Position numbers and translations under genes: made by a program
Notes under the pieces: generated by a model
The model's database searches: none
The model's input: the letters and a program-made list of their open reading frames with translations, nothing else
What the model was told of the DNA's origin: nothing
Part shown: positions 1 through 64,000 of the stretch, one piece after another
Layout of the letters: each line of letters starts with the position of its first letter
How positions within the stretch are numbered: the first letter of the stretch is position 1
Assembly: GCA_009192285.1 (NCBI GenBank)
Contig: WBVU01000003.1
Location: 961,973-1,025,972, forward strand
Direction of reading: 5' to 3'
DNA length: 64,000 nt
Source: Morchella semilibera
Lineage: Eukaryota > Ascomycota > Pezizomycetes > Pezizales > Morchellaceae

Positions 1-1587
1 ACATTGTCAAAAAGAGTTCCTCATCTTAATTCCGGCTGACAGGGTATGCATGTACGCAGATTTCGCCTACAGTTTAAAGTTCGCGCCGACGGCACCGACG
101 CTGGTGTTTGAGAGGCTTGTTGCAAATGTAAGGCTACGGTACATGTGGTTAGTTAGGGTATCATTCACAACCTAAACAATGACCACCAGATTGTCGAGTG
201 CCTCAAGAGCGTTGCGATAGACACGCCCAGCGAAGCTCGCCCCCCAGCCGCTCCTCCTTCCCGGTCACCATCATCACCACCAGCAGCACCACCAGCAGCA
301 CCACCAGCAGGAGCACCACCAGCAGCACCACCAGCAGGAACACCACCAGCAGCACCACCAGCAGGAACACCACCAGCAGTACCACCAGCAGTACCACCAG
401 CAGGAACACCACCAGCAGTACCACCAGCAGGAACACCAGCAGGAACACCACCAGCAGGAACACCAGCAGGAACACCACCAGCAGGAACACCAGCAGTACC
501 ACCAGCAGGAACACCACCAGCAGGAACACCAGCAGTACCACCAGCAGGAACACCACCAGCAGGAGTACCACCAGCAGGAACACCACCAGCAGGAACACCA
601 CCAGCAGCACCACCGCCGCCAATCTACCCGCCATGGGGCAGCAGCTCGAGCAATGCCGCCAGCAGCAGCCAGGCCATTAGATGCCTACGCCAACCCGCCA
701 CAGGAACCTTCCACACCGCCGAGGTACTCCCGCCCGGCACCTTCGTCGGCGCCTCAAAGCTCACCACCTTCCCACAACCGTACGCCACCCCCCCACGCAT
801 TGTCACGGGCCTGCGCTATCTGAGCATCGGCCCCTCGGGGACGCTGCGCACCGCCTTGAGGCCGCAGCGCGCCGCCGCCCCATACGCACACACCCCCTCG
901 GGGACGCTGCGCGCCGCCTCATGCGCGCGCGCAACCACCTGCTCCGACTTCACCATCGACGTAGATGACTACTCCTCCAAAAGGAAGTTCAGCGCGTGCG
1001 CCTCGTGGCTCTCGGTGGCGCCCGAGGACCCCGACATCCAGGTGGGCACCTTCAGCACCACGGCCGACCACCCGTCCAACGAGAAGAAGCACGAGGTGTC
1101 GCGGCGCATCCTGTTTGAGCGGCCATACGCGCAGCCGCCCCAGGTGGCCGTGTGGTTCTCGGGCTTCCAGTTCGAGCCCGGCAACGCAAAGGCCGAGACG
1201 TGGTGCGATGATGTCACGTCCACGGGCTTCCTACTCTTTGTGGGCTCGCACGAGGAGGCGACGATGTTCTCCGCCGACGTGGCCTGGGCCGCGTGTTCTT
1301 ACGATAGGCCGAATACGTGGATGGGCACCTTCAGGACCTCCCAACCACTCGCGGGGGCGGGGGCAGAGATCGGGTTCCATGGGTTTGGGGGAGGCGGCAG
1401 CGGCTTCAAGGAGGAGTCGGCCAGCGTCTTTTTGGCGACAAACTCGATCGCCGGGGATATGGGCCATGATGTGAACTTGAGGATATCGTGTTTCAATGTG
1501 GATACGAGCGGGCTGAGTTGGTGTATTAGCACCTGGGACAACTCGCAGGTTACCCAAGTGGGGGCCACGTTTATTGTGCTGGGATAG
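1..1587 (+). CDS. Pro/Ala/Gly-repeat protein with three H-type lectin domains (5' end outside window)
   Basis: Exons <1..127 and 190..1587 joined across a 62-nt intron (donor GTAAGG, branch-like CCTAAAC, acceptor CCAG, phase 0). At least 507 residues are visible. Order: an unrecognised segment of about 60 residues; a long linker of PAGTP/PAVPP/PAAPP units (nt about 262-615); then three consecutive H-type lectin-like repeats at about nt 697-1030, 1036-1320 and 1318-1584. Each begins near a GTF motif and holds a PPxV strand (for example PYAQPPQVAVWFSGF) and a Trp-containing final strand. Family knowledge: H-type lectins (Helix pomatia agglutinin, discoidin C-terminus) bind GalNAc-like sugars. 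Inference: a multivalent sugar-binding protein with a flexible spacer. The Ser/Thr-rich and Leu/Val-rich readings of the repeat are wrong frames. No start codon is visible. The first lectin repeat carries a 21-residue insertion. Confidence 0.75.
262..615 (+). repeat. GC-rich minisatellite coding for the PAGTP linker
   Basis: Imperfect tandem units of 12-15 bp built from CCAGCAGGAACACCA and CCAGCAGTACCA. All variants keep the Pro-Ala-Gly/Val frame used by the lectin domains downstream, so the repeat is translated. Length variation between strains is expected from such an array. Confidence 0.8.
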
Positions 1588-3071
1588 GGATTTCGGACTA
1601 TGTTATGTAGCTAGCTATATTTATGACATTCTTAAGCTTTGATATTGACTGAGACTGAAAACTTGAAGGTGCTGATGTACTTTATGGCCCACTATGATAG
1701 TACCAGTAGTAGCGGTTGATGCCTGCCCGATACAAACGTTAGTGGGCCATTGAGTGAACTGCAATTACAAGCCAGCTAGAAACTCCACCCTCATAGCTCC
1801 CAGTACACCAGAACCAAATCAACTGTGATCATGGTGACAATATTAGTAGTGGCGGAGATTACTCAAGTGAGGGTGACCAGCAATCGATGGGGTGCAACAG
1901 GTTACAGCAGACGAGACGGAACTTGATGGAGTAATACCTAGTTGAGAGTTATTGATGATGATGAGAGAGGAGAGGTTTCAATCGACCAAGTACAGTCTCT
2001 CGTAGTAGACAACTATGTATCTTCTACGTTCTTTGCCACATATCTCTTATGCCTATTATATCAGGGCTATGCTTATTGATACATCTCTTAGTGGTGTTAA
2101 TGCAGTACGTTGGCCACACTCAGATTTTCAAATCCTGAGTTCAGATTTTGAGCTCTTGGCGGGCTATCCACACCAGAGAGCAGTCGCCGAGAACTAAATA
2201 TTTAGGCTCAGAAGTTGTTGGCCAATATCTAATGTGGATTACCACACTTGATGATGGTGATTGTGGTGGTGGTGATGAGAGTAGTCCTATCCTCTTCTTC
2301 ATACGTAGCCACATGTAGATGTGCCCACGCACCAGCCAAAGCCTGCAGTAGGACCCACTCAATTAGCATCCTCTACTCCTACAAGGATAGTTTAATTCGC
2401 ACATATACTTTCTGCCCCGACCGTACCCTCATACACACATCAGTACATTGTACCTACATAGCGGGTATTACTAATCACCCCGGTCTACCCACCGCAAAAC
2501 AATGTTTCACAACTGTCTTGCAGTACCCAGGGCCCAGTGTTAGTGAAAATCACTAATTAAACGAGGCGATCAGGGTAGGGGGGTCTCGGGTACGCCGGTC
2601 GTAAGATTAAGCTTACGGCCACAGTCTTGGCAGCCACCACCCACACCGAATACGAGTGAGGGAGGGTCCGTGGGGGGGGGGACAGGTCTAGAGCTCGCGC
2701 GCGGTGTAGCGCCCGTCAAAACAAAACCAACAAAATTTAAAATACGGGAGGGCCTGGACTCGAGGGGTATATATTATCGATCCCCTATTTTCCTTTCCTT
2801 TCTTTTTTTTTTTCTGTTTTGGATTGTGGACACGTTTTTGGGTATCGACTTGTAGTTGCTTTAATGTACACTTGGAAAGGTATGTAATGTAATATGATAG
2901 CTTAAATTTTGCGGCAGCGCTGACACAGTCGGACGATTGCAAAACTTGTCGGAACAAAGAATAGGGAAAATAACAAATGAGAGAGAAAAATGAGAGTGAA
3001 AAAGAAAAAATCAGGTCCTTGAATTATCCAGTAATTCCTTTCCGGCGCTTCCTATCTCATGAGGGAATGGT
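1588..3071. other. Intergenic region, convergent genes
   Basis: No convincing gene. It lies between the 3' ends of the lectin gene and the minus-strand MAPEG gene. It contains short random ORFs only, an AGCTAGCT palindrome at 1609-1616, a GA/AT simple-sequence zone near 1950 and T-rich tracts around 2800. Confidence 0.5.
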
Positions 3072-3798: not shown

Positions 3799-4507
3799 TT
3801 CTGATGTGGTTTTGAAAAGTTCGAGTTCAATGGTATATGTTGATTGATTTTGCAAAGTCTGATGATACTGAGGGAAGGAGAAGAGAGAGAGAGAAGGTTA
3901 ATAATGAGAGAATAGGAGAAAGAAAGAAAGAATAGGGGGCAAGAACAGACAGACATAACAACATAGGCATATATATACTCATCTATCCTGCAGTTGGTTC
4001 TACGTCATACTAGTACCAATACACTCTAGAAGTGCTACCCTCACGAGCCCGTTTGACACCTGCCAATCTGAATCTAGCGAAGTCTTAGTTTCGTAGTTTG
4101 TGCGCTGGGCGGTTAATTACATGTAAGTACTCTCTCCCCTACAAGTTTCACTGTTGCTTCATCTTATCTTATCAGCGCAGTGGGGAAATGATAGTTCCTG
4201 GGGTTTTACTTACTTGGCAGCCAACCAACCCAATCCGTAGTCACCCCAACTATATTGTCTTTCAAAGTACGATTTCGAGTTGCCAAGGCTTATTGAACCA
4301 CCCCTAACCCTAACGTTTTCAAGATGCTCCTGCAACAACTAAATTATATGCATCTCACAACCAATACAATTACGTACCGTTGAATCTCTTTCAAAGGCGA
4401 CAAAGCTCCCGAACAGTGTGTGAGCCTGCATCACTTGAAAGCTGCCTTGAATATACTATGCATTCAACCGTGGTGGACGCGCATATACCACCGATCATAG
4501 AATCTGA
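3799..4507. other. Divergent promoter region
   Basis: Upstream region shared by the minus-strand MAPEG gene and the plus-strand gene at 4653. It starts with a GA-rich stretch (3865-3945) next to the MAPEG start, holds a TACATGTA palindrome at 4118-4125 and a short telomere-like CCCTAACCCTAAC at about 4302-4314. No coding sequence seen. Confidence 0.45.
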
Positions 4508-4515
4508 TATAAATA
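4508..4515 (+). promoter_or_regulatory. TATA-box-like element
   Basis: TATAAATA lies 138 bp upstream of the ATG at 4653 and is the only good TATA match in that leader. The distance would give a 5' UTR of about 100 nt. Predicted from sequence only. Confidence 0.4.
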
Positions 4516-4652
4516 CAGTTCGAATATTCTATAATACCGTTCCCGTCAAGTTATAAGAGCTACATTGCATCCTCTTCCGTCTACATAAACCAATATACTC
4601 AGCTTCCAGCGTCACCACTAACCAACCAGACCGACAGCCAATCACAATTCCA

Positions 4653-11666: not shown

Positions 11667-13634
11667 GGTGGGCGGCAAAGATAGGCTGGTGGAATGAACG
11701 TATATATATATATGGTGGTAGTGTCCTATCAAAGGAACTGGGGGATTAGACAAAAAAAAGAGAGAGAATGAATGAATGAACGAGATACCACGGCCACTGG
11801 CTGATATGATATGAGCGCCGTATCCAGCGGCCCCATGGCCTGGTATTTATACGGGTGGAAGATGTCAGTCATACAACTAAACTTCACCGCCAGGACCCGG
11901 TAGGACCAATGATCGATTGGCGCCGCCGTTCCACAGAACCGTTAATACGGGCCGGCAAACCATATATATAGCTACATGTACCACCTCAGGCACCATTATG
12001 CGAAACCGCTTTTTGCTTCGCCGCCTGGGTGGTGCTCTCACCGGCACTGCGTCGCTTGGCGGGCGTAGGTGCGGCGCGGCGCGGCGCGGCGCGGCTGGGG
12101 TGTTGGTTGTGTAACGTCGAGTGATGCGTGGTGATTGGGCACACTGCCTGTGTATTATTGCGGTTTGACAAAATTATCCGGACGCAACGGCTATAGGCTA
12201 CGGATTAACAGCCCAAAATAAGCCACAAACAGTCCTAAATTTTTGCAAGAAATTTATGAAATACTTGCTAGCCTAGTTAATACGACGGTCTTGTAGTGGA
12301 GTTTTGTCTATTTTTTGTTGGAGGCGCGCCTTGCATCAGGCGTCCGGGTAATTTTGACAACCCACAATACATTTGTTTGCTCAACGTGCGGAGGTCTTGA
12401 CGGCCGGTAGGGGTGTCTGGATCTATATCTACTGATACAGAGGGACGAACATACCCAGAGGTTTTCGTGGGAGACTGAACTAGGTGGAGCCGGGTCCAGG
12501 TCATGTACATAGAACCACAACGCGCGATGAACACATGTCCCCCTGGGAGAGCCAGAGGCCTTTGGATCGGTAAGAAGGCCTAGGGGTGGTTAGTTGAGGT
12601 GTGATAAACACCGCAGCGGAGAATCCTATTGCTAGCTGAGTAGATTTTGCCCGCTCAGCTACTTTCAGGCTTTCACCAAGCTGTCGGGTAGGGCCTTTAC
12701 ATAGGCGTAGATTCGCCCCGTTCTGTTCGTCCACAACAGGGCATGCAGCGCCTGGGGGGTTGAGAGATCGAGAGGAGGCAAATGGGACGTGCGAGGTTGA
12801 GGACGTAACCCTAACCCACACCACCTCTACTCTTTACTTGTGCCATCACTCGTGTTTATCCCGCCTCACTTCAGTGGGAACATACATGTGCTGCCTACAT
12901 AGTGGTTTCTTTACACCTACGGAGAAAGGGGGCGCTGTCACCCACGGGTACCGAGCTCAGCACGCCGAATATCCAGTATATATAGCTAGCTACTTTATAC
13001 CTTCCGCTTCTTAACGCCCGAAGCAGCCCCATATGAGCACTGGCTTCCCCCGCCCGTGACTACATGGAGGGGCCTTCGCGGCCGGTTTACTACCTATCCG
13101 GTTAACTGGGTTCCTCTGGAGCTGGAGGTCCATGCACCGCTAAGACCGTTAGAGCAAGAACCACAGGTGGTCCCCCTCCATCACTCCATCACTCCATTGA
13201 CAAGCCTGTCTTGGCGGGGTCCGGTACTAAAGGACTAGTGCGTGGGGAGCTGGTTGCGGGTTATGGCGCGGGCGGTGTTGTGGGTTGGGTGGTTCGGAGG
13301 TGGTGGGGATTTTGGGGTGTAGGGTGATGAGAGATTGCATGGCCAGATGAGGTTTGTGTAGACGGATTGAGCCTTGCAGTTCGGTGGGGTGTTACGTAAG
13401 TTTTGTTGTTCGGGTTTAGCGATCATTGACACCCTGAGTGATATTTCATGATACGTACACACACCCCAACCAGGCACTTGTATCGCGCGTCCAAAGTCTA
13501 TTTCAAGTTCAGAAAGCTTCTATAATTCTCTAATCTATCTATCTGCCAGTGCTTCTATAGAGACCATACTGCCCCCCGTCTACCTCCCCGCACAAAAACC
13601 AAAACAAAAAACAAAAAACGATACCCACCCCTCC
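11667..13634. other. Intergenic region
   Basis: Starts with a TA repeat (11699-11712) 35-45 bp upstream of the LPMO-like start, which may serve as its TATA region. Contains TACATGTA at 11973-11980, a GCGGC repeat at about 12070-12094, AGCTAGCT at 12984-12991, and no ORF I can support. Confidence 0.4.
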
Positions 13635-14309: not shown

Positions 14310-16638
14310 TGATGTATACTAGTTGTGATATCGAATGTACTTAAATCGATAATGTTGCAAGTCCTGATATTGGAGGAATGATACAGGTAGGCGTTGAGTT
14401 AAGTAGCTAGTTACTTATAGCTGCTAGCAAGCTAGCTAGTATCAAGACGCAACCACCCAGCATTCTGAAAAAAAAAACCCCTTGAATCATAGTTCGATCC
14501 CATAGCTAGTACTCTTCGGCCCGGTCTTGAAAACTAGGATGGAATCTCCCTTGAATACACCACCCCCGCTCCGCGGTATGGGGCCCCCTTCAGTAGCCAC
14601 CACCCATTTGTACCGGAATTAATAAGTGCTGAAGGAGAGCTGGAGGTAACATGCGGATAGGCTAGGTACTTTTCCACGCGGTGCCCGCTAGAAGGCGCTG
14701 TCGGGTCGGGGGTGTAGCTGCGGCTGTCAGAGCTGTGGGTGCAGTTCCGAGCCGGTATGGGTGGCTAGCTAAGTACTTGGCTACCAGAAGGGGTGGATGT
14801 GCCGCTTGTTCAACGGCGGCGTGTTGCGTTCCGGTGCGCACTGGGCTTTCTTGGCTCTGAAGATTACCGTAAGTCGAACGCAGCTGTCCGGCTGGAATGT
14901 GGCATCAGTGGTTAGTTGGTGGTACCCGTAGAGAGAGAAATCATCTGTTCCTGGGAGGGGGGTTTTGTAGTACTGTATGTAGCTATGGTTTTGATATTTG
15001 TACGGACGATAAGACGATGTAGGCCTAGCTAGCAGACGCTTCTGAAGAGCCGGATTTACACGAAAAACACTTCCTCCCGACGGGGGAAATCTCTGCATGG
15101 TCCCGTACCTAGCTCTTCTACGCTACCGGAGGGGCTGGAGCATTATCGCCCCGACTTTGGCGAGATCTTTTTGCGGGAGTGTCTAGAGCTCCCCGGTGCC
15201 AGAAGGGCTGCTGTCAGGGCCGTCGGGGCAGAGTTTACATTACAAAGTAAACTCCCGCGGGCGTCATTTAGGTCTCCGATAAGTAGGAAAATCAACTTTT
15301 TTCCTTTAGCCTCCGGCGGGCTTCATTTGACTCTATAGCCCTGTCTGATTCAATTCGATCATACGCATCTCCAAACTTGGGCATGGCGGCCAATAGCTGC
15401 TAAGTTGTGGGCTTTATCGTCGTTGCATCACTTTGAGGACCGGTACATCATTGTAAGATGGAACTGAGCGGACATGTTCGTGGATTCACTGCAATGGTTG
15501 AGAGCTGTTTGTAGGCACGGGTATCTAGCTGTTGTCAGCTACATGTAGTTAAGACACCATGAAAATAATATAATGAAGGAATAACTCTTCTTTCACTAAA
15601 CAATAAGATCCCCAGTACTGGTGGGGTATACCTATAATCCTATAGTCGACCGGCTTGAGCCCGAAAAGCAGTTTTATACCTCATCAGCAGATACAGGAGA
15701 TCTCATCACTGCCTACGTTTGCGTAATTGCGAGGGCTTGGAAGCCTCAAGTTCTGTTTGCTCATCTGCGGGTCGGCTCGGGGAGCTGGGCTAGGGCACTC
15801 GCGGCCATTGTACCTTGTTTTTGCTGCCTTGTTGTCCCGTTTGTTTCTTTAGTTGGCGCTAGCTCAAACCTTTCTCCTGCTTACGATCGCTTTAATACAC
15901 CCCACATCTCCCTTTGGACTTCATCACGACACAACAGTTCTTCAACAAATTCTGACCAGACATGGCTAAATCCTATCTCCTGCCCATCACCAATAGCGGA
16001 GAAGCCGAGACACCGGCGACAGGGATTATCGCGGTGAAGCCCCAAACATACAACAGAGGAATTGAGGAGATGTTTACTCAATAACTAAAGGCTTTGGTCC
16101 CGTTAGTTCACCTAGGAGCCGAATGTGGCCTACTATCTACATGGTATGATACTCAGGCAGTTAAACCGCCTGCTCTGCCGAACAATGAGATCTCTATCCA
16201 ATGATGGATGTCCTCCGGATCCAAAGATTTATCAACAATCTTTGGATATAGTACTTGCGAATCCCCAGCCATCTCCCCGGGGGACAGAAGCCAGTTTCAG
16301 TTTTCTCGTAGCGTGTAACTCTATGTGGGAACATTGCTGCTCGAGGGCTAATATTAATTAAAACTATACTCTAAACAATACAATACATGTATGTGCCAAT
16401 GCCCAATTACCATTTACTGATAAGGATATCATCCAAAAAAGAAAAGGCAACCCCAGCGTCTTATGTACTCGAAGAAAGGCTAATAACAATAGATGAAAAC
16501 CGCTCCTAGTTCCCTGTCTACACAAAATAAATATACCACAAGAGACATTTGGAATCTTTGGGCGATTGAAGTCCACAAACATGTCAAAACAATTCCCCTT
16601 TCCAAACCCAAGGGAATAAATCCAACAATCAGACCACG
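14310..16638. other. Intergenic region with one doubtful ORF
   Basis: Many CTAG/AGCT palindromes (for example AGCTAGCT at 14430-14437) and TACATGTA at 15540-15547. The only ORF with protein-like composition is 14781-15098 on the minus strand (listed separately). Nothing else supported. Confidence 0.4.
14781..15098 (-). CDS. Doubtful ORF or exon (105 aa)
   Basis: An ATG-started reading frame with mixed, protein-like composition (for example YKTPLPGTDDFSLYGYHQL) and two cysteines. No domain, no signal peptide, no clear splice partners and no codon bias like that of the firm genes. It may be an exon, a relic or chance. Confidence 0.2.
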   Translation of the reverse strand: MQRFPPSGGSVFRVNPALQKRLLARPTSSYRPYKYQNHSYIQYYKTPLPGTDDFSLYGYHQLTTDATFQPDSCVRLTVIFRAKKAQCAPERNTPPLNKRHIHPFW

Positions 16639-18293: not shown

Positions 18294-20888
18294 GGCTTAA
18301 GGTCCGATTGCAACTTTGAGTTTTTTGAATTGGTGTTGAATCGGCTGGTTAGTAAATGCAGTGATCCCAACGGTGAGAGGAGTCAAGAATAAAAGGGAGT
18401 TCTGGGGGGTAACCTTCTCAATAGAATCGCCTTCATAGCCTCTACACGCACGATCACAGATTCTATGAGAGATGAGGAACAACCACGAATAACCAACGTA
18501 AGAGAAAGTAAAAGCTCAGTACATTCTACGTCTATCGTCCCGTGGACCAGATAAAAGTCCCTTTCTCTGGTGATGATAATTTTGAGGGCTAACTGCACGT
18601 TGTATATGTTAGAAACCAACCGGCACCCCCTTCAGCGGGAGCCACGAGTGATCGTCCATGACCCAAATTACTAAGAGATAGAACCCTCGGCGTTCCAAAT
18701 ATCCCCGCTTGAGGATAAAACACCCTCGTCGCGCATCTACCGTTCAGAGCACGTATCCGGTCCGGTTCATGTAGCTAGCTAGGGAATTCCCACCTTCTAT
18801 CTCGCTAACGCGCGCGGGATCCGGCTACACCTATTCTATCCATCAATCCACCCTTTCCTCTATTCAGTGTTTCTTGTGTCCGATAAGGGGTGATAGAACA
18901 TTGGCGTATACATGTACCTACCTACTCCGGGTACTGGCTCTGCGGTGCCCTACTCAAGGTATCCCCCCCCAACTGGCCCTAGCTTGCCAACTGGACTCGT
19001 TCGTGGATCATCCAGTACCAAATAAGCAGTGCGAGATCTGATCTGCACCCATGCCACACCACACCCTCTGGGATATCTCTCCCCAATGTGCCAGGATCAT
19101 CCGGGAACGGGTATCAGATTTCAGATTCCGGCGTGGGCGGGCAACCAGCTCCACGTGGGGACGTCGAAGCTTCTGGATTGCGAGCTTTGCCCGGGCTTGA
19201 TACCGAGGTCTAGCTAGCTAGGCGTAGGCAGAATGACCGAATGTCTGTCTATCACGGGTTTATTATGGAATACTAACCCGTGGAGACGTAGAGTGTGTCC
19301 CGAGAGTAGGGGTAGATGCTCAATGTCGACGTGGAGAGGTACTTACACCTACGTAGTGGGCACCCGGAGATCTTTCTCCACGACGGAGGTCGGGCCGGAT
19401 GGGTATGTAGATTCGATTAGATATTCCGAACCAAACCCACGCACCCACAGGCGCCTATCTGCTATCTAATCTAGAGTACCATGTAGCCATTATATCACCA
19501 GCTCCCCAGTCCGAAGGGAGAAGAATACTAAACACACGACTATCAATCACCACATATCGACCAGAATAATATGCTCAAACAGCAGCGGCCATCTCACGAC
19601 TCTAGAGTACATATCTAAGAGGGTAGTGCCTGATCTGATTAGACGCATCCCACCCGGCCGCCCGCCCCCGGTACATACAGTCCCGTGGTGGTGCGGTGCA
19701 CGCCCAACAAAAAAATCTCCAATCCACACATATAGATGTCAATGTATCTACTCTGGGTGTTGCAGTTTTTGCCCCCCTAGCTGAAGCAGAACACACTTGA
19801 GCAGAGTATTTACCTACCGGCATCCCTGCGTCTGCCACATGCCACATGCAATCCATCCATCCATCCATCCATCCACTGGATCAAAAAAAAGCACACTATT
19901 TTTTTTTCCTTCACGGATGGACGTTGACCCTACAGATGTTGTATGAGTTGTCCTTTACCCGGTGTACCTCGCTTTTCCTCCTCTACATACCTCCTACTCT
20001 AAACTACCTACTCTAAACCACTGCAGCAACGCACGTACCCCAACGGCGCCTACCATATACCTACCTCGAGATCGCCATGCGAGTATGAAGTATTATTATT
20101 ACTATTACCTCGAGATCGCCAATAAGAAAATTTTCCTCCCCCCAAACTGACTGGCGCGGGTAATTTATCAACGACGGGGGGGAGACCTGTAGGGCGTTTA
20201 TCCAGCGAATCGTAGCGGGGGCGCTAAAGAGCGACGTGCTGGACTTTCCGCTTGCGGCAGAAGGTTTACAATATCATTATCAGTACATACATACATACAT
20301 ATCGGATGTGTATGTATGTTGTCATGACGCGCCGAAGAAGAAAAGAAGAGGAATAATGAGGGTATGTAGTACCTACCTACTAGTAGCAGATGAGATACGT
20401 GACGGGAGCGGAGCGGGTCGGGGCGTGCGGGTGCGGTGCGGTGTGGTGGGTGTGGTGCGTTCCAGTGTCCTGGTGTGTGGCTTTTTTTCAATTATTTTAT
20501 TTTTTTTTCTTTCCCAGAGTCGTCGCCGTGGTGGGGTGCGAGCGGTGAGGAAGTTATATTGGCTCGTAAGTCCCCCGGGGGGGGGGGGTTCGAGAGATAT
20601 TTTTTTTTTCTTTTAGAATGATATCTGTCCAGCTGGCTGACTAGCTACATGTAGGTACCGGTATTACTCTACAGAGTAGAGGGTATGTAGGTACTTTACA
20701 TGTACCTACTTACTCTACTCTAGGTAGGTAGGTACGACTCCTACTCTACTCGCCGAGCTGGCCACCACCCGCTGTAGAGTAGATAGAGCACGCATGTATG
20801 TATACTTTCTTCTTCCGGGAGAGAAGGGAATGAGCAGAGCAGAGCAGAAGAAGGCATGCCGTCGGATTCTCCAGATCGTGAGTTTGTC

Positions 20889-20921: not shown

Positions 20922-23900
20922 GTACATCCCTACTTTATCTGCCTACTTTCTCTTAACTCCATAACTATACCTATATCTATATCCCTATCGCACCTCCTTC
21001 GAGCACAAGTGGGGGGGGGGAGGTGGGGGGGTTCCTCGCTGTCACAATGTCTCTTCCCCCGTGAGCCAGCAGAAAGTACAACCAACCCGCAGACACGAGT
21101 GCCGATACCTACTCTAACCTACCTATCGTCGACAGAGGGAGACAGACACAGACACGGTGTGACATCTGCAGGCAGCGTGGGGTCCACCCGAAGCTTATTT
21201 CCCGTGCGACTCTACTCTAGGTTGGTTGTGGGTGGGTAGGTACATAGGTACAAGAGCAGAGCAGGTAAGTAGTTAAGTAAAAAAAAAAAGTACCGGACAA
21301 TAAGGGTTTCTGGTTCACCAATGGGTGCGAGGACTAGGCGAGAACTACTGCAAAAATAAAAGCCTAGAGACAAACCTTGCATTGTCAGGTACTATTTACC
21401 TGCCCCCAAGTAGGTTCTAGGTATTCTACATACTCTTTCCCTCCTCTGCCGGCCCCCCCCCCAAAAAAAAAAAATCACAGTTGCAAAAAGATATGCCTAC
21501 ATATATGTACCTACATCCCTATCGATATTGCTGCCCTCTCGGTGAGACAGCATCCCGGAGGAAAAGAAAATAGACTAGAGTAGGTACCTAGAAGTAGGAA
21601 AAACTGGCAGGACATGTGCATTGCTGGGAGTCGACCGTTATGACTTCCTTTGTTCCGTGCCTGCCTACCTAGCTTACCTATGTACCTAAGCCTAAGATTA
21701 TGTATGTACGTGCTTGTGCTTACTCAATGAATTAACCAACGTGCTTGCGGGTGCTCGAGCTTTTTGAGCTCGAGATACATGGAGTGATGAATCATGACGC
21801 AGTCCGGCAGCAACACAAGACGTTATCTCTTATCTGATATCCCCCGGTACGTACCATTGTCTCTATCTACACAGGTACAACTTGAACGCCTAGAAAAAAA
21901 TAAAATAAAAAACAGGCGAAAAAAAATTTTTAACCCCCCCCCCCCCCACCCCTCCCACCTTGGGCAAGGACGCACAGGCCTTATGTAGGTACATGTATGT
22001 ACCTACGTACCAATGGCCACCCACCCACCGGCTCGGGAAGCTTATCCAATCCCCATCGCTCGGCGAGTCTCTGGCCGCATCGGCAGACGCATTCCAAACC
22101 TTCTTTCGCGGGGCCGCATTCTGCTTCCACATCCAGTGAGTGCAGCTGCCCCAAGCTGTTAGAGTAGGGACTCTGCCTAGAGCAGAGCAGTTACCCTACG
22201 TCAGTCTGCCTCCCCCTGCATGTCTCATGATGATGCCTGCTGCTGCCTGCTGCTGCTGCTGCTGTATGTAAGCTCTAGCTAGTTACTCCAGCTGCTGTAG
22301 AGCTCCATCCTCTGACTGGCCATCCTCGCGAGCCAATAGTTTGCCCCCCGTAAGCTATTCTGGCACGTGCTGCGGCGAACATCGTGGTTTACTATGGTTA
22401 TCGACTTATCGTGATATGTATATACCGTCCTCCATTTTCCGCTCTTTCTCTGGTTCCGGACCGTACGTGCGCAGCACCCCTTAACTAGCTGGGCACGGTA
22501 CGGTACATACCTAACCATCCTTACCAACAGACGGATCCCCGCAATCCCCGCAAATTGGCTATCCCGGATTTTGATCACGGCGGGAGATCGGATCGGGGGT
22601 ACGTAGAGGAGAGAAAGCGGAAGCTTCATCTACACGGGATGGACGATGGAAGGGTTGAATAAATGGTTGGTAGCCACGTTTCGAGTAACGATGGCGGAGG
22701 CGGCGGGTGACCGACGACAACGACAACGACAACGATGATAAATTAATTCTTGTAGAAATCGTGTCGGGTTCGGAATCGACGGTAGCAGAAAATCTCACCC
22801 GTTATCGTGACTGATCCATCAAAAGTAAGAAGAAAAAAAAGGGAGGAAAAGAAAGGAAAAAGAAAGAAAAAAACCTGAGGGTCAGTAAAGCATGTAGTCA
22901 AAGAATCGACAAAGACGGAGACGACCCTGTAACCAGGCCCCCCAATAAGTATCGTAACAATTACCACCTGAGCTCTGCTACCAGGGATGTACCACTCCCC
23001 CATTCTTCACGAACTGTTCCCAAGCTCCAAATTCGCCGATATCAAAAGCACTCGAATCCCATCCACGATCGGGGAGTCCTCCTCCTACTCCTCCTCCCCC
23101 ATATCAAAAACAGGTCAGGCCACGCGACAGGGCTAGCTACTCTGTGTTGTTGTTATGGTGGGAGCAACGTCAATCAACGTGTTCCGTCCGGGAGATCATT
23201 CTAGTATTTGCCTATCGGGTTTCAGATGTGCTGTAAGGTGTCTTCGGAGGGAGTGGATCTTGGATTGCACTGAAACAAGCTAGGGGGAGAGATGATGGGC
23301 ATTTTGTATCTACTCCAATTGAATGAACGTATGTAGAACTCGTTCCTGCTGATGGGGAGAAAAAAAGATATTTGATCTTTTCAAAACTGCCCCCGGGGCG
23401 GCATTAGAGATACGCTGCTGTTCTAATTCGACCATACTTCAGTACGACCCGCTCCCCGGCGAGCATTACTACTCTGATACTCTGCTGAAGGTATTCAGGA
23501 GTCATGACGGCGGACAGGCAGTACTTTACTGCACAAAAGTGACTTTACTAACAGTCAATGTCAAAGCTGCCAGTACCGTCGACAACAACACAGCCCGGGA
23601 TTGTGGAGAAGCTTTAAGAAACCTGTATTTCTCGCCAGAAACCCTAGCTAGGGCTATTGCATCTCCCGACAGGTTGGCTCATCCAGCTATTGGGACGATA
23701 CGATGCGTTGGCCAGGGGCTGGGCATGGGGCGTAATTCTCCGATGAGCTGCGGTTGGCTAGACAGATCCTTTTTTTCTTTTGCTTTGTCAGGAACTTGCA
23801 AGCGGAAGAGGTTTGTGCGATTTGGGGGTGAAAGGAAAAAAAGGGAAAAGCACATCTCACGATGAAGTTTGGGATCTTTTTTTTTGCTTACAATGTAGGT

Positions 23901-39430: not shown

Positions 39431-39611
39431 TAATATCGTGGTAGTCCCCGGTCCAGAATGTTTTTCTTTCTTTCCTGCAGTCTAAATAAGGCTAGGGGTT
39501 GAAAACTTCCTAGATTTCTTGTCCTACGAAAATTAGAAAACCGAAGGTGCCAGATCGAGGTCTTAATCAGGGTTAGAAATTAGTATCTACATGTACATAC
39601 ATATGTAAGTA

Positions 39612-39695: not shown

Positions 39696-41723
39696 GTCAT
39701 AGTCACACTACAGGGTGACTTACACTAAGAACCCACGCCTGCATTGGGGAGGGTAATCTACATTTAGATTCCAAAACAGGTTAATAATGCATTGATGCCG
39801 TTGGAAGGTGGGTTGATATACAAGAGCCCCGCCAGTAGAGTAAATGTAGGCTTTTTTTTGATGGAGAGGATAAGTTGCTACACTTTCAACTACTCGTAAA
39901 TTCATGATGTTTCCGGACCCGACCATTATTGCATGCCATACAAAAAGGTAGTCCTGGCAGGGTTTTCTGTGTATGAAATAGTCCGGAAACGCTATGAAAT
40001 TACGAATAGTATCGCTGACCGAGAAAGCGACACGTCGAACCAGAACCGAGTGATGCTCTGTGATTAAGAAATGCGTACATGTGTGGATACTTCGCGATCG
40101 GCAAACAGCACTATTGCAATTGGATAGCTAGGTTGAGCACTAACACAAAGAACCTTCCATTGTGATTTCAAAATTAAGGCGAGACTCGGAAATTTATTAT
40201 GAATAGGAAAAACTAACTGGTGAAAGCACAGCCAGGCTTGAGGTCAATTATGGTGGAAACCGGATCGACTCTATAGATACATGTATGCTTGATCAATCGA
40301 GCTGGGTTTATATTGGACCCTAGATCATGGACGATTACAAAAAGGTTCACCACCCACTTCTTATTTATCATATGATGGACAATATTGGGTATGAGATAAG
40401 ACAAGTAGAACTTTACTATATTATTTCTTTATTAAGGGCAGGGCTGGAGGACTAGGTCTGAACTGTAGTGCCAAATTAACTATATTAGGTAGGTTTCCTC
40501 AGAAGTGTAAACAAACAAAGGGATAATTCATGATGTTTTCGGATTTAAAAAGGCAGCCCGAGATTTTGAACTCACTATGAGTTTGATGTTGGAAAGTTCA
40601 TAGGTAAAATTAAAAATAAGAAAACTCGTAAAGGCCTTGAACAACTTGTCTCGTGCCTATCACTAGATCATATATAGACTAGCCTGCTAATGCGAGAGGC
40701 GAGCTATAGGTGAATATTAGAATACGTGTAATCAAGCGAGTTTACGTCTTGAGATTACGTATATTACATGTATATAAGTACATGTTCTCAAGTCACTTCC
40801 GCTCCTTGCACTTTCTGTTCTTTCCAGCTCCGATTACCCTTACCCTTATGAAGTGCAACTCACGTATCAATAACTTGCAGACGCGCGATGTGGCGTGTGT
40901 CTTGCGTGCAAGTCTATTAGCTTCAATAACCATAGGGTATTCTTAACTTCAAGAGATAGCACGTCAGATTGTTCCATTAGTATACCAATCAGGGTATTTT
41001 CGGATAGTAGGGAAAGTTTTGTTAACAGCCAGCGACAAACTTTCATACTGGAGCGTATTGCTACAAAAGTTGATTTCAGGCAACAACATCGGTTCGAACC
41101 CGAGGATCGAACGGGCTCGGCCATTTCACTTTCTGTCCGATTACATTCTTACCGGTACCTTACTGGGTAGGCGGACACTCAAAACCGACCCCCAGTTAAG
41201 TTTTTCTAGGGGCTATGGGGAAGTGGTTTTTTATTTATTTCGAAATCCCTTCTGTAGGGCTGTTGGGGGTAGGTAACAGTCAGTGGGTGAAGGATAGTTT
41301 GATGGTTGGTTCTGTGTCCGCCACTGTACGTATTTACTGGTCCATTCGCCAATCTCATGCTTGAGGCAAGAAGTATATTGCTCTAATTGATTGATATGAG
41401 TAGATGCAGCCGAGTAGCGGCTCCTCCTTACGGGGGCAATTAAAAACAATCTAGGGCTTTCACCAGCATTGCTTCTTTCAGGACTACGATACCTCCATGG
41501 GTTATAAACAGTGTCGAAGGTGTTATGCCTAGCCGGCCTATAGCTACTGATGGTGTGCAGCTACAGACCATAGCATAGGTCTCGCCTTTATCAAGGTCTA
41601 TGTTTCCAAATTTTCGAGGCTTCTCTAGCAATCGATTTGGGAAATGCGTCATGACAAAACCTGTGTGAGGTGTCCAGCCTATGTGCCGCATTAGAGAAGT
41701 ACGTGTGACTCTATGTTAGAGCC

Positions 41724-43732: not shown

Positions 43733-46058
43733 TGTGATTTTTTTTTTTTGGAAACTTGTGGAGATCTGATAGTAAGGCGGAGCGTGATCTTTTTTTGTGG
43801 AGGTGCTGATGTTAATTGAGTACAGGCTTGGAGTAGGGCCGAGGAAGAAAAAAAGTTGTGTGGGGGGACGAGAGAGAGAGAAAGAGGAAGGAGGAGAAGG
43901 AGGAGAAGGAAGAGGAGGGAGGAGTAGGAGGAGAAGAGGTTGTTTGCGAAATGAGGAGGCTGACTATCTTGGGCGATAACAGGCGCAATGGGGGGGTTGT
44001 TACCTTGGCGGAAGTTGTGTCACACGACACATTCATGAATCGTCACTCGGGTTCCGAGTAGGAGGGTTACGTAAACCTTCATTTCCCCGATATCCTGCAG
44101 GGGAGGGTTGTGGTTGGTGCATTGCTGTTGGGTGGGGTTTTGCTTCGGAAATGGTGGTTGGCGTTTTTGGGTCAGGAGATACTGATAAGTGTGTGGTCCA
44201 CTAGAAATCCCGAGAGAGAGAGGATCAGATTGTTTGATTAGGATCGGTCCAGAAGGCCTACACAGTTCAAGAAATTATTATCGCGCGGCTCTTCGGATCC
44301 AAACGAAGTGTTGGAAAGGCCAATACAAACGGTTGTTTATATAACATTGTAAATATGTTACTAAAAATAGGTTATGAGGATCGGGTGTTCGTTTGCAATT
44401 GGGGCCTACAGGCCCCTGTTTTTATGTTACAAACCGATCATTGACATCTATTTAACTCGCTGTGAAATCATTGACATGCCTGACCTAATAGCTAGCGTTA
44501 TTTTACGTAATTATGAAAATGCCGCTTTTGAGGGGTGGGAATGTATGGTATGGTGCAGTGACCTCCGAAACATTTACCTCCTGTCTATATTAGGGCTTGG
44601 TATTTCGGCATGCTGTTTCTCTTACAAGGTTGATTTCAAGAGAGAGAGCAGGGGTAGCTGAGATAATTTTTGGGGAGCCGTTCGACCTGCTTTGCTCTGT
44701 TTACAGGGCCTTCTGGCTGGTATATGTGTAGCTTTAAGATGTACTTGACACGGTGAAGCTACAGTGAAAGTACCTATAGCCTAAAGAGGGCGCCATTGCT
44801 TGTTCTTTTTCACCTAGTGCTGCAGTCCCTGTCTACGTTAGGTAGGGGCGTGACAATTGTCTTAGCGGATCATCTTGCAGGGTAAACGGGCGTATTCGGG
44901 GTGTGCATAGATATCTAGATGAGCGGGCTACACTGGACACGGCGATTGGTAGCCTGAGCTTTATCTCCCTTTAGCAAGAGTTTATCGTGGAAAAAAGGTT
45001 TAAAGGTCAATCGGGCCGTACGCTGTAGGAGACGTACGCTCTTATTATCAGCGCCCCTTCTGATATCGATGGGTACATGTATTCACCACCACTACCCGCT
45101 GGTCGCATTGACAGATCTTAAACGACAAAAATGCTAAGGCGCGCGCCGACGTGAAACTATACTTTGTCTTTTGCGGGGGGTTCCTAGGGGTGCGAAAGGC
45201 GCAAGCTTTGACATATAATGGCGGGAGCTTATATTGTTGCGGGGACTAGCTGGTGGTGGCACGGCGGCGATTCGGTCAGATCAGCCTATCTCGCCCAGGT
45301 GTGTGGCAATTGCCGCTTTAGTAGGTCTGGTTGGGGTTTGGTTTGCCGGAGATGTGGGGGCGTAGGCCTTTATGTCTAAAACCTGTAGATAGAAAATAAG
45401 GGGGGAGTGGTGGAGATAGGGAGGCGGCTGCCGGGTCGTGGTGTATATGTATTGTACACTATCTTGGCCTATAAGGTTTATCTTCCTTTAATTGTTTCCC
45501 CAATCCCTGCGGTTCGTGAACGTCTCAGCTCATTTGGTTACTGACTGAGCTGGTCAATATAACTAGTTTACGGGGATGGTGGTAATTAAGGAAACCGGTA
45601 TGATATTCTGGTTCGAGGGATATTAGGAGGTAGAGGCTGGCTGATCAAACGAGGAACGAAGCCTTCAATAATTCTTGAATCGGAGTTTTTCACAGGCTGT
45701 GTGGGTTGTTCGGCGGGAAACGACATACGTGATAGAGGAAGGAGAAGCGGAGAAAGGCCCAGGGTTGATGAGGTGCTAGTCCTCTTTTTTTGTTTTAAAC
45801 ACCCGGAGCTCTTGAAAACGGGTCCTATGTATATAGCTCCCAAAGCTAGTCAAGCCTGCCGTCTATCAAAAAAAAAATCGTCAAAAGAATCCCAGTATCG
45901 GTCAAAGTTGCTACTCACCATCTTCCCTCACGATGGGTAGAGGTACTTCCTCGCATTTCCTAGCTCGCCGGGTTCCCGCCACTGTCTAGGCGCCTTCACC
46001 AATCCCTTGACTCTGCCCCCTTAGCCCGGGGGGGGGGGGCACACTCCTTCTCTTGACT
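43733..46058. other. Intergenic region
   Basis: Starts with a GA-rich stretch (43866-43945) in the promoter region of the F-box/ankyrin gene. TACATGTA at 45074-45081 and G12 at 46028-46039. No ORF with recognisable features. Confidence 0.4.
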
Positions 46059-46439: not shown

Positions 46440-48124
46440 AGTGCCGTACGCCCTTGGGATAGTGCGTGTGACTTTGCGGGGCGGGGAGCGGGGTCGGGGG
46501 TGGCTGTGTGGGCTATGTGCGGAAGAGAGAGAGGCGGAGGAGGAGAGGGCAGAGCTGCACTGTAGCAAACGAATTGTCCAAGTAACAGGCTTGCGGACTG
46601 GTAGTTCCTGCGATACAAACCCTAATCTGCATATGCGCCGCGCCAAGTCATGGGCGTCTGGCGCCCCGGGCCTGCGGGGTCACTGTTATGTAGCTGATGC
46701 ACTCACTACATGTGCCTGGCGCCGGAAACCGTAAACCCGCAGGAACAGCATTTGTAGACAATACGTCGGCATGTATATCCGATGGCCCAGGGCTATACGT
46801 ATTCGATCAAGGCCAGCCGGTAAATCACCTGACTCGCGGTATAGTAAGGGACCGGAACGCCTTTCTTACACCCGCTTGGATTTGTGTTCTGGTTTATCGG
46901 TTGTGGGGTTAGGAGAATAGGGGGGCTAGATGCTCGGAAATTCATTGCAACATGGGTATATGAGCGGGAGCTCATGATTTAGTGCTTGCTGTCTATGCGG
47001 TCATAATTATATATATAGGGTAGATCAAACGAATTATGGAAAAGAACTTAATACATATCAATCAGCCACAGGAGACATGCGCATGCCAGAGTCCGATTTC
47101 TTTCCGGCCGGTGATATACTATATACCGAGAAAAACGAAGCGATGTCAAGGCGGTATGGGTTCTCGTGATGGCAGATGAAGTTAGAGTCCAAGGGAGTTT
47201 CTTTCTAACTAGTGGGGGTTGAGTGATAAACCCTGTTTTACCATAAATTTACGTTTGCTATTTTCACCTCGATAAAGCTCGAGTGATATTCCATGATCAT
47301 AGCAAGGGTTGATAGATGACCTTCTCCCAGAAATCGTGACCGGGATAACGAACGAGGGAATAATGTCTAGTACTCTCCTCCAGCACCAAGACCACCTGCC
47401 ACGTCCCCGGGGGGGGGGGGGGCACCCACCCGATATAGGGAGCAATATATATACATGTAGTAACAGAAAACAAGAAATCAGGCGGCCCCAAACCCGCACC
47501 CTACCTGACCCACGTTCTCGAAAATACTCTAACCTCCGGACGGTTACTTAAAGTCCGCTGTGCTAGGAACTCTTATCAGAGATTCACCGTAGTATATAAG
47601 GTCGGGAGCCTGTACAATAGCCGCCGCGCCCCGGAGGCAGAACCGAACTAACGGACATAGTATCGAAAGGCTGGGGAGATTACAATGCGGACTCATGGTA
47701 AGGCTGGGACGTGGGAGTTGTAGTCCGTCAGGGGGCGAGTGAGGCCTGGGGTACGTGGTGAACTCCGTTTCGGCGCACTGTCGCATGTGTCAAGTGCGAG
47801 TCGGATATAGCTAGGGTTACAGAAAATGTTTTGTCAAAAAGCTCAATCACGATAATCAAATCGGTAGCGTAGCGTCCACAAGGTGAAGTTTTCCTGTAAC
47901 TATATATAGTTAGCGTTGATTAGGGCTAGGGTTAGTTTGTTGGGGCTATTCCTGAGGTGGTATTCTGTATCCGTATCTGTGCAGGTATCTTGCTAGCACT
48001 TGACACGATGTGCATTGGAAGGGAGTCTACTATACCGAGCCCTACCGAGCCTGTTGCCATCTATCTTTACGCCGATGCGGGTATACGGTTTCTGTCTCAT
48101 TAGCCCGCGGTACTCTCTATTTTT
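46440..48124. other. Intergenic region
   Basis: No supported gene. Contains G14 at 47409-47422, TACATGTA at 47452-47459 and a TTAGGG-like GGGCTAGGGTTAG near 47926. The ORFs here have random composition. Confidence 0.4.
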
Positions 48125-49611: not shown

Positions 49612-50179
49612 ATGGGATGAAAGGCCTGGCTAAAGATAGTCTTGGTAAGTCATAATTCTTCGGTTATATCCACAAAGATACTTACGATATCGGTAAACCG
49701 CAAATTATTACGCGACCAAACAAACGCTTCCAGAAGCTCTCTATCATCGGCCATGTTATGTCCGTCGTGTAAATGATGATCATGGTTGATGTAAGATGTT
49801 TCTCGCCCTGTTTGTCCCATTTTTTTCTATGATCAAGGACATGTAACTCAGTATAAGGCAATGGTGGCTTTGGGCCAGCATAGGCAGGTAATACGCTGGT
49901 TAACTGGGCTTGACTTCCAATGTATTTGTAGGGAAATATAAATCTTTCGATGGGGTGTTGGCTGCGTACCTCTCATACTCTCTAATATCAGGATGCATGT
50001 ATTTGTATACAGAAATCTCGTGGATATTGTTAAGGGTTGGGGCCGAAGGCGGATTGTCGGGGTCACTTGGTCCAGGAGTTAATTAACGCCTCAGGGTTAA
50101 GCTGTGACACGAGAATATACATCAGAAGCAGACGCATCTTGAATATAATGAATACTACATGTACCTACAGGGAGTACAA

Positions 50180-51188: not shown

Positions 51189-51573
51189 TTAACTGTCAGG
51201 GTAATTTGCAGGAAGGGCTGGTAGGATTCGTGCTCTATCGGGGGGGGGGGGCTCTGGTCTCGGGGGTAGATTGGGGTAGAGCACGTGTGGGTTCGTTTGG
51301 TGTAATGGCGTACGTCTGTCTGGTGTTTCATGGGCCGCAAATTTGAAGGGGGCCGGAACATAGACGTTTTGATAGTAGTAGGGACTGGAGTTGTATACAT
51401 CTGGGGGCGATTCCGTATTGTGTGTGAGCGCGGGTTCAGACCTTGGGGCGGGGGAGGGGGGGTAGGAGTACATGTAGTTACCTTTTTTCTTCGGCGTGAG
51501 CTCTACTTCCTCGTGCTTGTCTGTGGCGCGCAGGATAAACTCCCTCTAACTCATCCATGGAGATAGTGGCCAT
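51189..51573 (-). CDS. Unrecognised proline-rich reading frame, possibly frameshifted at the start
   Basis: From about 51555 to the TAA at 51189-51191 the frame reads EFILRATDKHEEVELTPKKK, then a Tyr/Pro-rich tail (YSYPPSPAPRSEP; PYYYQNVYVP; LPPRPEPPPPDRAR). The ATG at 51573 starts MATISMDELE in another frame, which would run smoothly into REFILRAT with one extra base, so either a one-base loss or an intron ending TTAG at about 51556 separates them. About 120 residues. No family recognised. Confidence 0.35.
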
Positions 51574-58635: not shown

Positions 58636-58675
58636 CCCAGTCAACAAAGAGCGCATCACAGGGAATAAAGGAGAG

Positions 58676-60671: not shown

Positions 60672-62032
60672 TGGAACGGCTGTAATGAGTATAAAGCTTA
60701 GAAAGATACCTTTGTGGGAGTATTCTGGGAGTTCCTAATGTTGAAGTATTGAACTTTGCCCGCCCTTTCTGTCAAGTGTCTCATTTTTTGTTGACTGAAA
60801 CGTCACGACAATATCTCCGGTAGATCTCACTATGGGTTTCAATATACCACTATGTGCGATTTTATCCGCTCTTTCTCTTGGTCTAGCTTTCTTTCGATCG
60901 GCCTGTGAGACAATACGTTTCAGCTTCCCATGGGGAACGGTCCATGGAAATAAGGGCCGCCGCGCTGCAGTAATAACTAGAAAGGTGTACGGACCAGCGA
61001 ATCTCGCTTATACTGACAGGTTTTAGGATGTTGTAGCTCGGGGTTAGAGTCTCATTTCTAGGGCTTGAAGAGCTACATGCGCGTGGCGTTTGTACCACGA
61101 TATCTTGCAAGCCTCGCTGCTCGTAAACTAGGCCAATGTGGCATATATCATATAATCTAACGTAGAGCAGAGGTATGAGAATATCGGCCTCTAGATACCT
61201 CGACCCGTAGCCCGTATTCCACGAGGCTTGATTTATCTAATCTAGGCTTCATTATGGTAGCCAGGCATTATTTAATCAGGTAAGCCTCAGCGTGTCAGGA
61301 AAGCTAGACCCTACGCTATCAAGCGTACAGTCCGAAGCGGCACCTGGAATTTTACGCTACAGTCTGCTAGCCCGCCCAGCGCGCCACGCTACTTGAAGCA
61401 CAGAAGCAGGTCTCAAAGCCATTCACGTCTCACTCTGCTTAGGTCGACTTGGGTACCTTGACGTAACGTTCAGATCTTACGCCCACTTCCAGGGTGGGGG
61501 GGGGGGCAGACTACATCCTTAGAACAGGCATTGTCCCTAGTAACAGGGAGAAACAGAGAAAGGTGTAAAAGCTAAACTGGCCCGTCGGGGGACGTCGCCA
61601 ATCCTGCATCAGGAGAAAAAAGTGGTGAGATGTATTCTGTTATTCTGACTTACCACGGGCCCGTCGAGATCCTGCCCAGACTCGACGAGCCGCAGCTGTA
61701 TGTGAGATGTACTTCAGGCCCTACTACGAGCGGGGCCTCTTCTGGGTACATGTATTGACAGCGTCCCGTCCAAGTAAGTGGGGCATATGTACACATAGCC
61801 TTCTGCGCCCACAGCCCTCCGTCTAGGCACATTCTAAAGGGCCTCTACACCTCCCCCACCCCTAAGTAAGAAACCAAACATCATACCTACACCCACTCAA
61901 AACCAGGGTTAGGGTTACCACAAGGGGGAATATTTCCAAGATTGATAGATACGGGCTTTCTTGACGTCTACATCGTCTCATGCGGGGATTTACCGTCGCC
62001 TGGCGTACCGCTTTGGACCGGCCGGGGTGTAG
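60672..62032. other. Intergenic region
   Basis: A 64-codon ORF at 60832-61026 starts with a hydrophobic, signal-like stretch (MGFNIPLCAILSALSLGLAF) but has no further support. TACATGTA at 61747-61754, a TTAGGGTTA motif near 61906, G10 near 61496. Confidence 0.35.
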
Positions 62033-62505: not shown

Positions 62506-63478
62506 CTGGCCATGGCCTCTAATGAGAACTACGCCCACCACCTCCCTCCCTAGTCCTAGTCTTGGAACTTTACTATACTATACACATGTACTACTGTGGT
62601 TCGCTTTGGCTGCTGTCAATGATTCGTTTCCCGTAATATGTCCGGCCGGCCATTCTGCATGTTACGTACTCTTCCCTGCTTTTTGTTTTTCGTTTTGGAC
62701 CTGGCTTGTCATGGCGTGGAGACGGGGTGGGGTGTGTTCAGGGTTCCCAATGATAATGCGGTGTTGTAATACATACCGACAAAACCCGCTGGTAGTACAG
62801 TGAGTGAGTAGAGTACGGTATGATGATCTCTAGGTAGCATATAGATTTCATCTGTATCGACAATATATAGCATGGATATCATGGTAGTGACTTGGCGCCC
62901 GGGGGAATCTTCATTTACCCCTACTAACCCTCGATTTATGCAGTTCATGAGTCGGGGGGAGAGGGGAAAACCTGGATTTTGAACTTCAAGGAACATAAGA
63001 CATCACTCGCTTACAGGGGCTGGCTGGGGTGGCGGGTGTTTGGGTGGTTGGGCGGTTGGGTGGTGTGGGGCGTACGCTGGGGGATATATGTAAATGTAGG
63101 CTGCTAAGGGCTGTACCCGGGGCGTTGGGGAAGCTATGAATGTATACTCTGCTCTATATCCACACCAATTCGGCAGACACTTGCCTTTACCACAACACGC
63201 CATACCTACCTACCTACCTACCTGCCTACCCATCTTATATAGCCCCCCCCCTAAACCCCGGGTTTGCAAGTACCATCATAAGCATATAGTGGCACCTCCT
63301 TACAGTGGAGACATCTACCAGGAAAACATGTATATCAAATCATTGGCACCTGCTTTTTAGTTCTTGCGTGCTCGTTGTAGAGAGGTATGTTACGGTGCGG
63401 GACGGTGCTCTATTCTCTATTCTCTAGGGCTAGATCTATGTATATGTAGAGCTGGGTACATACGCCCGCTGGCACAGC
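62506..63478. other. Intergenic region between convergent genes
   Basis: Contains a TACC repeat (about 63205-63226) and a G/T-rich stretch at 63015-63070. No supported gene. Confidence 0.4.
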
Positions 63479-64000
63479 TTACACACACTGGTGCTTTGTT
63501 TCCGCGGTGTCTGGGTTACCGTGTTGTGGAGGCGGCGGGGAGACCTGAGGGGTGGTGGCGGTGGTGGTAGGGTCCTCCTCGGTGGTGGTGGTGTTGGGTG
63601 TTTCGCTGTCGGGGGTTGGGGCGTCTGCGGTCCGTTACGTTAGTACTAGTTGCGGGCCCAATGGGTAAGATATATACCAGTGTCCATCTCCTCCCCGGCC
63701 GTAACCGCACCCCCCTTCGTGCCTCCACCCGGACTCCCAATCTTCCCCCCACCCCCACCAGGCACCCTCCACTTGACCCTCCACATACTAACCCTGACGC
63801 CCTTCTCGCCCGGCAACGAGGGCACAAAGAATCCCTTCACCTCGCCCACCACGCCCTCCACCAACTCCCTCAATCCCACCGGACACCCCGCGGCGTCGCC
63901 CGCCTTCCGCGGCCTGCCCCGCCTCGCAGCCCGCGGCGACAGCCCGCGCCCAAACCGCGCAAAATGGCGCCTAAGGTCCGCGCATCCGTCTGCGTCGCAT
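63479..64000 (-). CDS. 3' part of an unrecognised gene cut by the right edge
   Basis: Minus-strand exon 63678..>64000 and last exon 63479..63624, joined by a 53-nt intron with donor GTATAT, a textbook branch site TACTAAC and acceptor CCGCAG; phases match (split codon GAC). The upstream exon reads RRHFARFGRGLSPRAARRGR, then GLRELVEGVVGEVKGFFVPS and GVRVSMWRVKWRVP, with the strong C/G third-position bias of this genome's genes. The last exon is Thr/Pro-rich (SETPNTTTTEEDPTTTATTP) and ends HQCV. The basic stretch followed by an amphipathic helix and the Thr-rich tail do not match a family I know. Confidence 0.6.

Follow-up and report, generated by a model that had tools for sequence, protein, structure and literature searches.

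In the passages of PMC3520976 that deal with it, the palindromic octamer TACATGTA is motif-1 of Phytophthora, lies upstream of 12,070 genes and is correlated with expression. The same passages consider three explanations, namely binding by a homodimer, KN homeodomains of the Irx type and footprints of Tc1, and they state both that Irx proteins prefer TACATGTA and that taCATGta is a rare Tc1 footprint in C. elegans. The excerpts of three other papers that concern this octamer list it as Phytophthora M93 (PMC3597505), mention it (PMC6165875), and describe the human NACC1 BEN domain crystallised on an oligonucleotide containing it (PMC11472053). For another octamer, HIP1 (GCGATCGC) of cyanobacteria, the relevant part of PMC4390886 explains accumulation by methyltransferase-linked mismatch repair. 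Among the titles and abstracts listed in searches of the open-licence PubMed Central literature, we found no account of TACATGTA in a fungal genome. Here we analyze the octamer in the fungus Morchella semilibera, both in a stretch of 64,000 nucleotides (the window; G000:C19:961973-1025972, contig WBVU01000003.1) and throughout the assembly to which that stretch belongs, which comprises 56.76 Mb (56,756,124 bases) in 23 contigs.

An original prediction, made from the window alone, listed 20 copies of TACATGTA and put the excess at about 20-fold. All 20 start positions were correct, and one further copy, at 16384, had been overlooked. The window therefore holds 21 exact copies, compared with a mean of 1.04 and a maximum of 4 in 100 dinucleotide-preserving shuffles, and TACATGTA tops all 256 palindromic octamers as well as all octamers of equal composition there. 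Across the whole assembly we counted 22,206 copies, that is, one per 2,556 bp or 25.0 per 64 kb, where even base use predicts 866 (25.6-fold); the count includes contig pairs that resemble duplicates, so the absolute numbers are somewhat inflated. The observed excess is confirmed, and the genome count lies far above expectation. With 21 copies against 25.0 per 64 kb, the density in the window is ordinary for this genome. The reversed word ATGTACAT, likewise a palindrome and of equal composition, occurs 3,723 times genome-wide, and TACATGTA is 6.0 times more frequent. The over-representation of TACATGTA is real, genome-wide and sharper than first reported. A copy every ~2.5 kb in a fungal genome requires a genome-wide cause, such as a protein that binds the word, past transposon activity or biased repair. 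Of the causes offered by the original prediction (a binding site, a recombination or nucleosome-related signal, or a mutational product of this genome), the binding site and the mutational product are retained as candidates.

As to the paired contigs, C9/C10, C12/C13 and C21/C22 each look like one chromosome assembled twice. C21 and C22 (L040/L041) are identical across 9,955 bp. A 3,468-bp locus on C9 and C10 (L034/L035) and a 3,534-bp locus on C21 and C22 are identical between the paired contigs, and the pairing of C12 with C13 (L038/L039) was judged solely from the parallel positions of domain matches.

For detailed analysis we used a 264-kb sample made up of the window and a single 200-kb block from contig C1 (L009-L028), in which 5,500 bases are N. 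TACATGTA occurs 73 times in this sample, versus 5.1 times expected from an order-3 Markov model. Its 24 single-letter variants have 2 to 15 copies each, so that a single change lowers the count by a factor of 4.9 or more. In noncoding DNA, we compared the 25 most frequent TANNNNTA words with expectation: CATG stands at 20.9 times and TATA at 15.3 times, and the rest reach at most 4.0 times. When we counted the 16 palindromes of the form TA-XY-Y'X'-TA and the 16 of the form XY-CATG-Y'X', only TACATGTA and TATATATA exceeded 8 copies. Therefore, the excess belongs to the word TACATGTA, not to CATG or to TA-richness. Of the 41 copies of the hexamer TACATG in the window, 21 are part of TACATGTA; outside the octamer, the hexamer is near background.

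These counts bear on the explanation that the octamer is cryptic simple sequence, that is, that intergenic tracts rich in TAC/GTA or with a TANN period of 4 happen to contain TACATGTA. Such tracts would account for the recurrence of TA at spacing 4 (1.7-fold), for the over-representation of TACCTACA, CTACATAC and GTACCTAC, and for the greater density of TACCTA/TAGGTA within 54 bp. They would also fit the clustering of copies within 400 bp in two stretches of C1, which is not seen in the window and which the reversed word shares. However, they do not account for the loss of copies with any one change or for the background level of TACATG outside the octamer. Nor do they fit the flanks, which are unrelated among the sampled copies, or the variable pair of bases between the copies of the 10-bp doublets described below. 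On the count drop per change, the TACATG background and the unrelated flanks, we mostly rejected a simple-sequence by-product, and we regard it as very improbable.

The flanks of the octamer are symmetric. Read outward from the 73 copies, T stands at +3 in 76 of 146 flanks and A at +4 in 74; TA at +3/+4 occurs in 48 of 146, compared with 8 to 23 at 11 other offsets, which gives the extended form TANNTACATGTANNTA. Genome-wide, 3,317 of the 22,206 copies (14.9%) have the outer TA on both sides, and the reversed flank stands on both sides of ATGTACAT in 251 of 3,723 cases (6.7%). Copies also lie close together throughout the genome, with 2,666 pairs at 8 to 38 bp versus 269 at random (9.9-fold). 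Among the first 100 close pairs listed, which come from the initial 2.4 Mb of C1, 19 have a spacing of exactly 10 bp, compared with a mean of 2.7 at 30 other spacings. The symmetric flank TANNTACATGTANNTA and the 10-bp neighbor spacing are new observations.

We located the copies relative to genes called by a small self-trained hidden Markov model (HMM), whose calls are approximate (13 gene segments for the window, 36 for the block). The predicted coding DNA, which makes up 21.8% of the scanned positions, holds none of the 73 copies (P ~2e-8 if evenly spread). Because chance alone gives ~1 copy in that coding DNA, this result means that the excess is confined to noncoding DNA. The window-based claim that nearly all copies lie outside coding exons was right: all 21 copies in the window and all 52 in the block lie outside both the coding and the intron calls of the HMM. 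Within the block, 51 copies fall in the first 140 kb, and the final 60 kb, where many gene calls resemble retrotransposons, has 1 versus 19.9 expected. Leaving out those 60 kb gives 72 copies, 68 of them between two called genes, and the density in five intergenic length classes (0.87, 0.38, 0.52, 0.22 and 0.49 per kb) is independent of length. A longer dispersed repeat had also been discounted from the window, and the 264-kb sample agrees: only 4 of 73 sites had a second BLAST match over the motif, all 4 from two TACATGTANNTACATGTA doublets that align over 22 bp. We therefore rejected membership in a longer dispersed repeat within this sample; no one family accounts for the sampled copies.

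Words one letter away from TACATGTA were counted in 154 kb of noncoding DNA, with the transposon-rich stretch excluded. Transition neighbors number 64 versus 25.8 expected, and transversion neighbors 65 versus 46.2. Genome-wide neighbor counts cover three cases, in which the ratios are rough, as the reversed controls differ in dinucleotides: the transition words CACATGTA (3,654 versus 1,569 for the reversed control, 2.33-fold) and TGCATGTA (5,179 versus 2,668, 1.94-fold) and the transversion pair RACATGTA (4,672 versus 4,017, 1.16-fold). The transition excess suggests a net loss from the pool of copies, through relaxed selection, turnover or another origin of the copies, and the transition-biased neighbors fit decaying copies of TACATGTA. 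Speaking against a special status, 20 of 1,094 equal-composition words, TACATGTA included, reach as high a ratio of transitions to transversions.

The neighbors are also relevant to a HIP1-like ratchet, in which a repair, conversion or modification system would bias mutations toward TACATGTA without regulatory selection. With all variants counted, the numbers being small, the symmetric positions 1/8, 2/7, 3/6 and 4/5 stand at 2.18, 1.51, 1.94 and 1.40 times expectation, so that the excess is highest at the outer and lowest at the central positions, a pattern that may resemble that of HIP1. However, transition neighbors alone are roughly even across the same four positions (2.78, 2.29, 2.33 and 2.62 times expectation). 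A ratchet would account for the form shared with HIP1, a palindromic octamer accumulating to a per-kilobase density, and for the spread of copies across intergenic DNA and not promoters, but if it acted on all DNA it should reach coding DNA too, where 0 of 73 copies lie. We consider such a ratchet unlikely.

The explanation that we rank first is that TACATGTA is the site of a putative symmetric DNA-binding protein, to which we give a probability of roughly 0.42; the binding itself we infer. This explanation is favored because recognition appears exact, the outer TA is dyad symmetric, pairs occur at 10 bp, 0 of 73 copies are in coding DNA, and there are precedents in Phytophthora and NACC1. The octamer with its outer TA steps, TANNTACATGTANNTA, would be the recognition site of an abundant protein that probably acts as a homodimer. 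Such a protein would occupy very many intergenic places in chromatin and not a fixed promoter position. Weak selection across many sites would keep TACATGTA above background, and the 10-bp spacing would align neighboring dimers along the same side of the double helix.

Several results weigh against a binding protein. None was found in a search that covered the TALE homeobox and the BEN domain only. The sole KN/TALE homeobox match, at C14:782200 (L029), has the recognition helix WFINARRR, and no match to the BEN domain (PF10523) was found in the genome, in a search whose controls were silent too. There is no promoter focus: 40 of the 68 sites between called genes lie in eight intergenic regions longer than 7 kb, and only 1 of 68 lies less than 200 bp from the end of a predicted gene, versus 6.0 expected (a weak depletion, P ~0.02). 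The reversed word clusters more strongly than TACATGTA does, with 129 close pairs, or 17 times its own chance level compared with 9.9 times; thus, clustering in itself does not set TACATGTA apart. The TANNTA flank rule may produce the 10-bp spacing with no need for cooperativity, and because an outer TA can begin the next copy, the 10-bp peak is at least partly a product of that rule. Finally, a greater enrichment of transition than of transversion neighbors is not predicted by a plain mutation-selection equilibrium through point changes alone.

Three candidates were examined and set aside. The L029 homeobox fits both Pfam homeobox models. The Irx recognition helix has Ala where WFINARRR has Ile, and we rejected an Irx-like TALE homeodomain as the binder on the grounds that the only KN/TALE match has this non-Irx helix. 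A promoter element at a fixed distance was rejected for want of a clear peak, the distances having just the weak depletion below 200 bp and a weak excess at 200 to 500 bp (15 of 68 versus 7.9 expected, P ~0.02). A 3' signal of convergent genes is unsupported, with 0.33 copies per kb in convergent versus 0.49 in tandem and divergent intergenic regions.

Transposons could also have produced the octamer, as fossil excision scars of TA-targeting DNA elements of the Tc1/mariner or pogo type. In this route an element with CA...TG ends enters TA, duplicates the TA, and on exit leaves two terminal bases per end, giving TA CA TG TA; the scars would build up neutrally outside exons and then decay by mutation. 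The original prediction held that dispersal by a transposon does not explain the copies. Dispersal as a repeat is indeed excluded in the 264 kb, but the dismissal was too quick, since Tc1-type excision would leave TACATGTA. The octamer is the predicted product of excision of a CA...TG element at TA, and the genome contains both types of transposase domain (69 DDE_3 and 96 DDE_1 matches, duplicates and fragments included). We inspected 15 transposase loci, 13 of them distinct, several having been picked for long open frames and the element boundaries being set by eye. Terminal inverted repeats lie next to TA in 10 of the 13 distinct loci, 9 beginning CA and one CT; they were not found at the other 3 (L030, L032 and L038). 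Scars would also fit a scatter proportional to intergenic length, the 0 of 73 copies in coding DNA, the 1 copy versus 19.9 in the transposon-rich 60 kb, and the transition bias among neighbors. A search with a terminal-repeat pattern added 13 ends, 10 of them new and off the duplicate contigs, although the pattern misses any end whose 11th outside base is G, as at both L046 ends. TA at +3/+4 is about equally frequent at Tc1-like ends (8 of 26) and in palindrome flanks (48 of 146).

However, the immediate surroundings of the insertion sites do not match. C follows TA (GTAC) at 25 of 26 Tc1-like ends, compared with 42 of 146 flanks of the palindrome that have C at +1, and scars of GTAC sites would read GTACATGTAC, as just 4 of 73 copies do. 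Against expectations from base composition, the remaining common scar forms stay at the background level (TACAGTA, 18 versus 18.4; TACTGTA, 16 versus 18.4; TACGTA, 57 versus 70.2); TACATA and TATGTA, on base composition only, stand at 1.9 and 1.8 times expectation. Inverted repeats with TACA ends have no clear excess, with 3 in the window (two of them TACATGTA itself) and 4 in the block; other TANN starts have 0 to 10. Moreover, 22,206 scars would face just 165 domain matches, and the genome holds 5 exact ends of the pogo CAGGAG repeat. We rejected a pogo family as the source, for which 5 exact ends are too few and the 59 ends that differ by one or two letters largely reflect chance (37 in controls), and also the scars of living Tc1 families, whose ends fit but whose flanks do not. 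Families alive today fail to explain TACATGTA; an extinct one might. Overall, we give excision scars a low probability.

Two direct comparisons were made. A comparison of alleles through the paired contigs was uninformative because the compared stretches are identical. Empty-site comparison of repeats within the sample gave 7 pairs (reciprocals included), of which 6 were identical and 1 had a one-letter change, with no loss of CATG.

The elements in L031, L033, L034 and L043-L046 and the ends found by pattern have repeats that start CAGC, CAGT or CACC, with C outside the TA at every end; the single non-C end among the 26 is that of the CTCG element in L042. To our knowledge, such GTAC strictness of Tc1/mariner-like elements seems unusual for the superfamily. 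Three Tc1-like ends (L043:2336-2343, C2:2540420 and C4:2499373) have TACATGTA at or a few bases from the insertion point, and at the L043 and C2 ends the octamer shares the insertion TA. TACATGTA is also kept inside two transposon families near the element end, in two copies each (position 961 in L033 and L034; position 2584 in L036 and 2722 in L037).

The 21 copies in the window, to which no strand is assigned, differ in their outer TA. It is present at both outer positions (TANNTACATGTANNTA) at 4118..4125, 20646..20653, 21990..21997, 26164..26171 and 39588..39595. Copies with TA at -4/-3 lie at 11973..11980, 27318..27325, 40278..40285 and 47452..47459. Those with TA at +3/+4 lie at 15540..15547, 18909..18916, 20697..20704 (its start 51 bp past the start of the 20646 copy), 40765..40772, 50156..50163 and 51469..51476. 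The outer TA is absent at 16384..16391 (the overlooked copy), 26728..26735, 37056..37063, 37615..37622, 45074..45081 and 61747..61754.

Other words are enriched in the 264-kb sample. The telomere-like ACCCTAAC (30 versus 5.0) and AACCCTAA (33 versus 6.3) are perhaps interstitial telomeric repeats; CTAGCTAG (21 versus 2.9), ATCACTCG (45 versus 6.5) and TACTCTA (3.1-fold) are enriched as well. In the window, a tandem repeat of 12, 15, 27 and 39 bases at 266-614 reads in frame as a His-Gln-rich HHQQEHHQQ, and a predicted gene at 10858-11666 matches Pfam LPMO_AA14. Zn2Cys6 regulators, named by eye, are among the predicted translations.

Taken as a whole, we place a binding protein first, the scars of an extinct transposon and a repair or modification ratchet equally next, and cryptic simple sequence last. 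In a wider and rather unlikely generalization, TACATGTA would be a eukaryotic highly iterated palindrome, present in about 20,000 exact copies scattered across intergenic DNA, many of them flanked as TANN...NNTA. It would be read by a putative symmetric chromatin protein, or else represent more than 20,000 scars of an extinct TA transposon, and would have arisen independently in Phytophthora.

The known systems resemble the fungal one in different respects. TACATGTA is common to the sites of Irx proteins and of the NACC1 BEN domain, as far as the excerpts on those sites go, whereas the fungal KN/TALE helix WFINARRR has Ile. The Tc1 footprint of C. elegans, as cited in the motif-1 passages, is letter for letter TACATGTA, and the fungus has TA-targeting elements with CA...TG ends. 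However, the sampled elements sit in GTAC and the palindrome mostly does not, copies far outnumber transposase matches, and other scars are not enriched.

With motif-1, the fungus, with its 22,206 copies, shares an identical octamer that is very abundant in Phytophthora too. In the passages on motif-1, that octamer is tied to upstream regions and infection-stage expression, whereas in the fungus it is spread over intergenic DNA without a promoter focus. The fungal copies have TANNTA flanks and 10-bp doublets, and Phytophthora M94, TACCGGTA, is not enriched in the fungus (5 copies in 264 kb). If the cause of the accumulation is not transcriptional, the infection-stage promoter reading of TACATGTA in oomycetes would need reexamination.

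In form, HIP1 is the nearest analogue. According to the relevant part of PMC4390886, GCGATCGC too is a palindromic octamer far above expectation, scattered as single short sites, and its deviations are most frequent at the ends and least at the center, a pattern that the fungal variants may share, on small numbers. HIP1, in that account, is prokaryotic and tied to a methyltransferase; TACATGTA belongs here to a eukaryote, and its sampled copies lie wholly outside predicted coding DNA.

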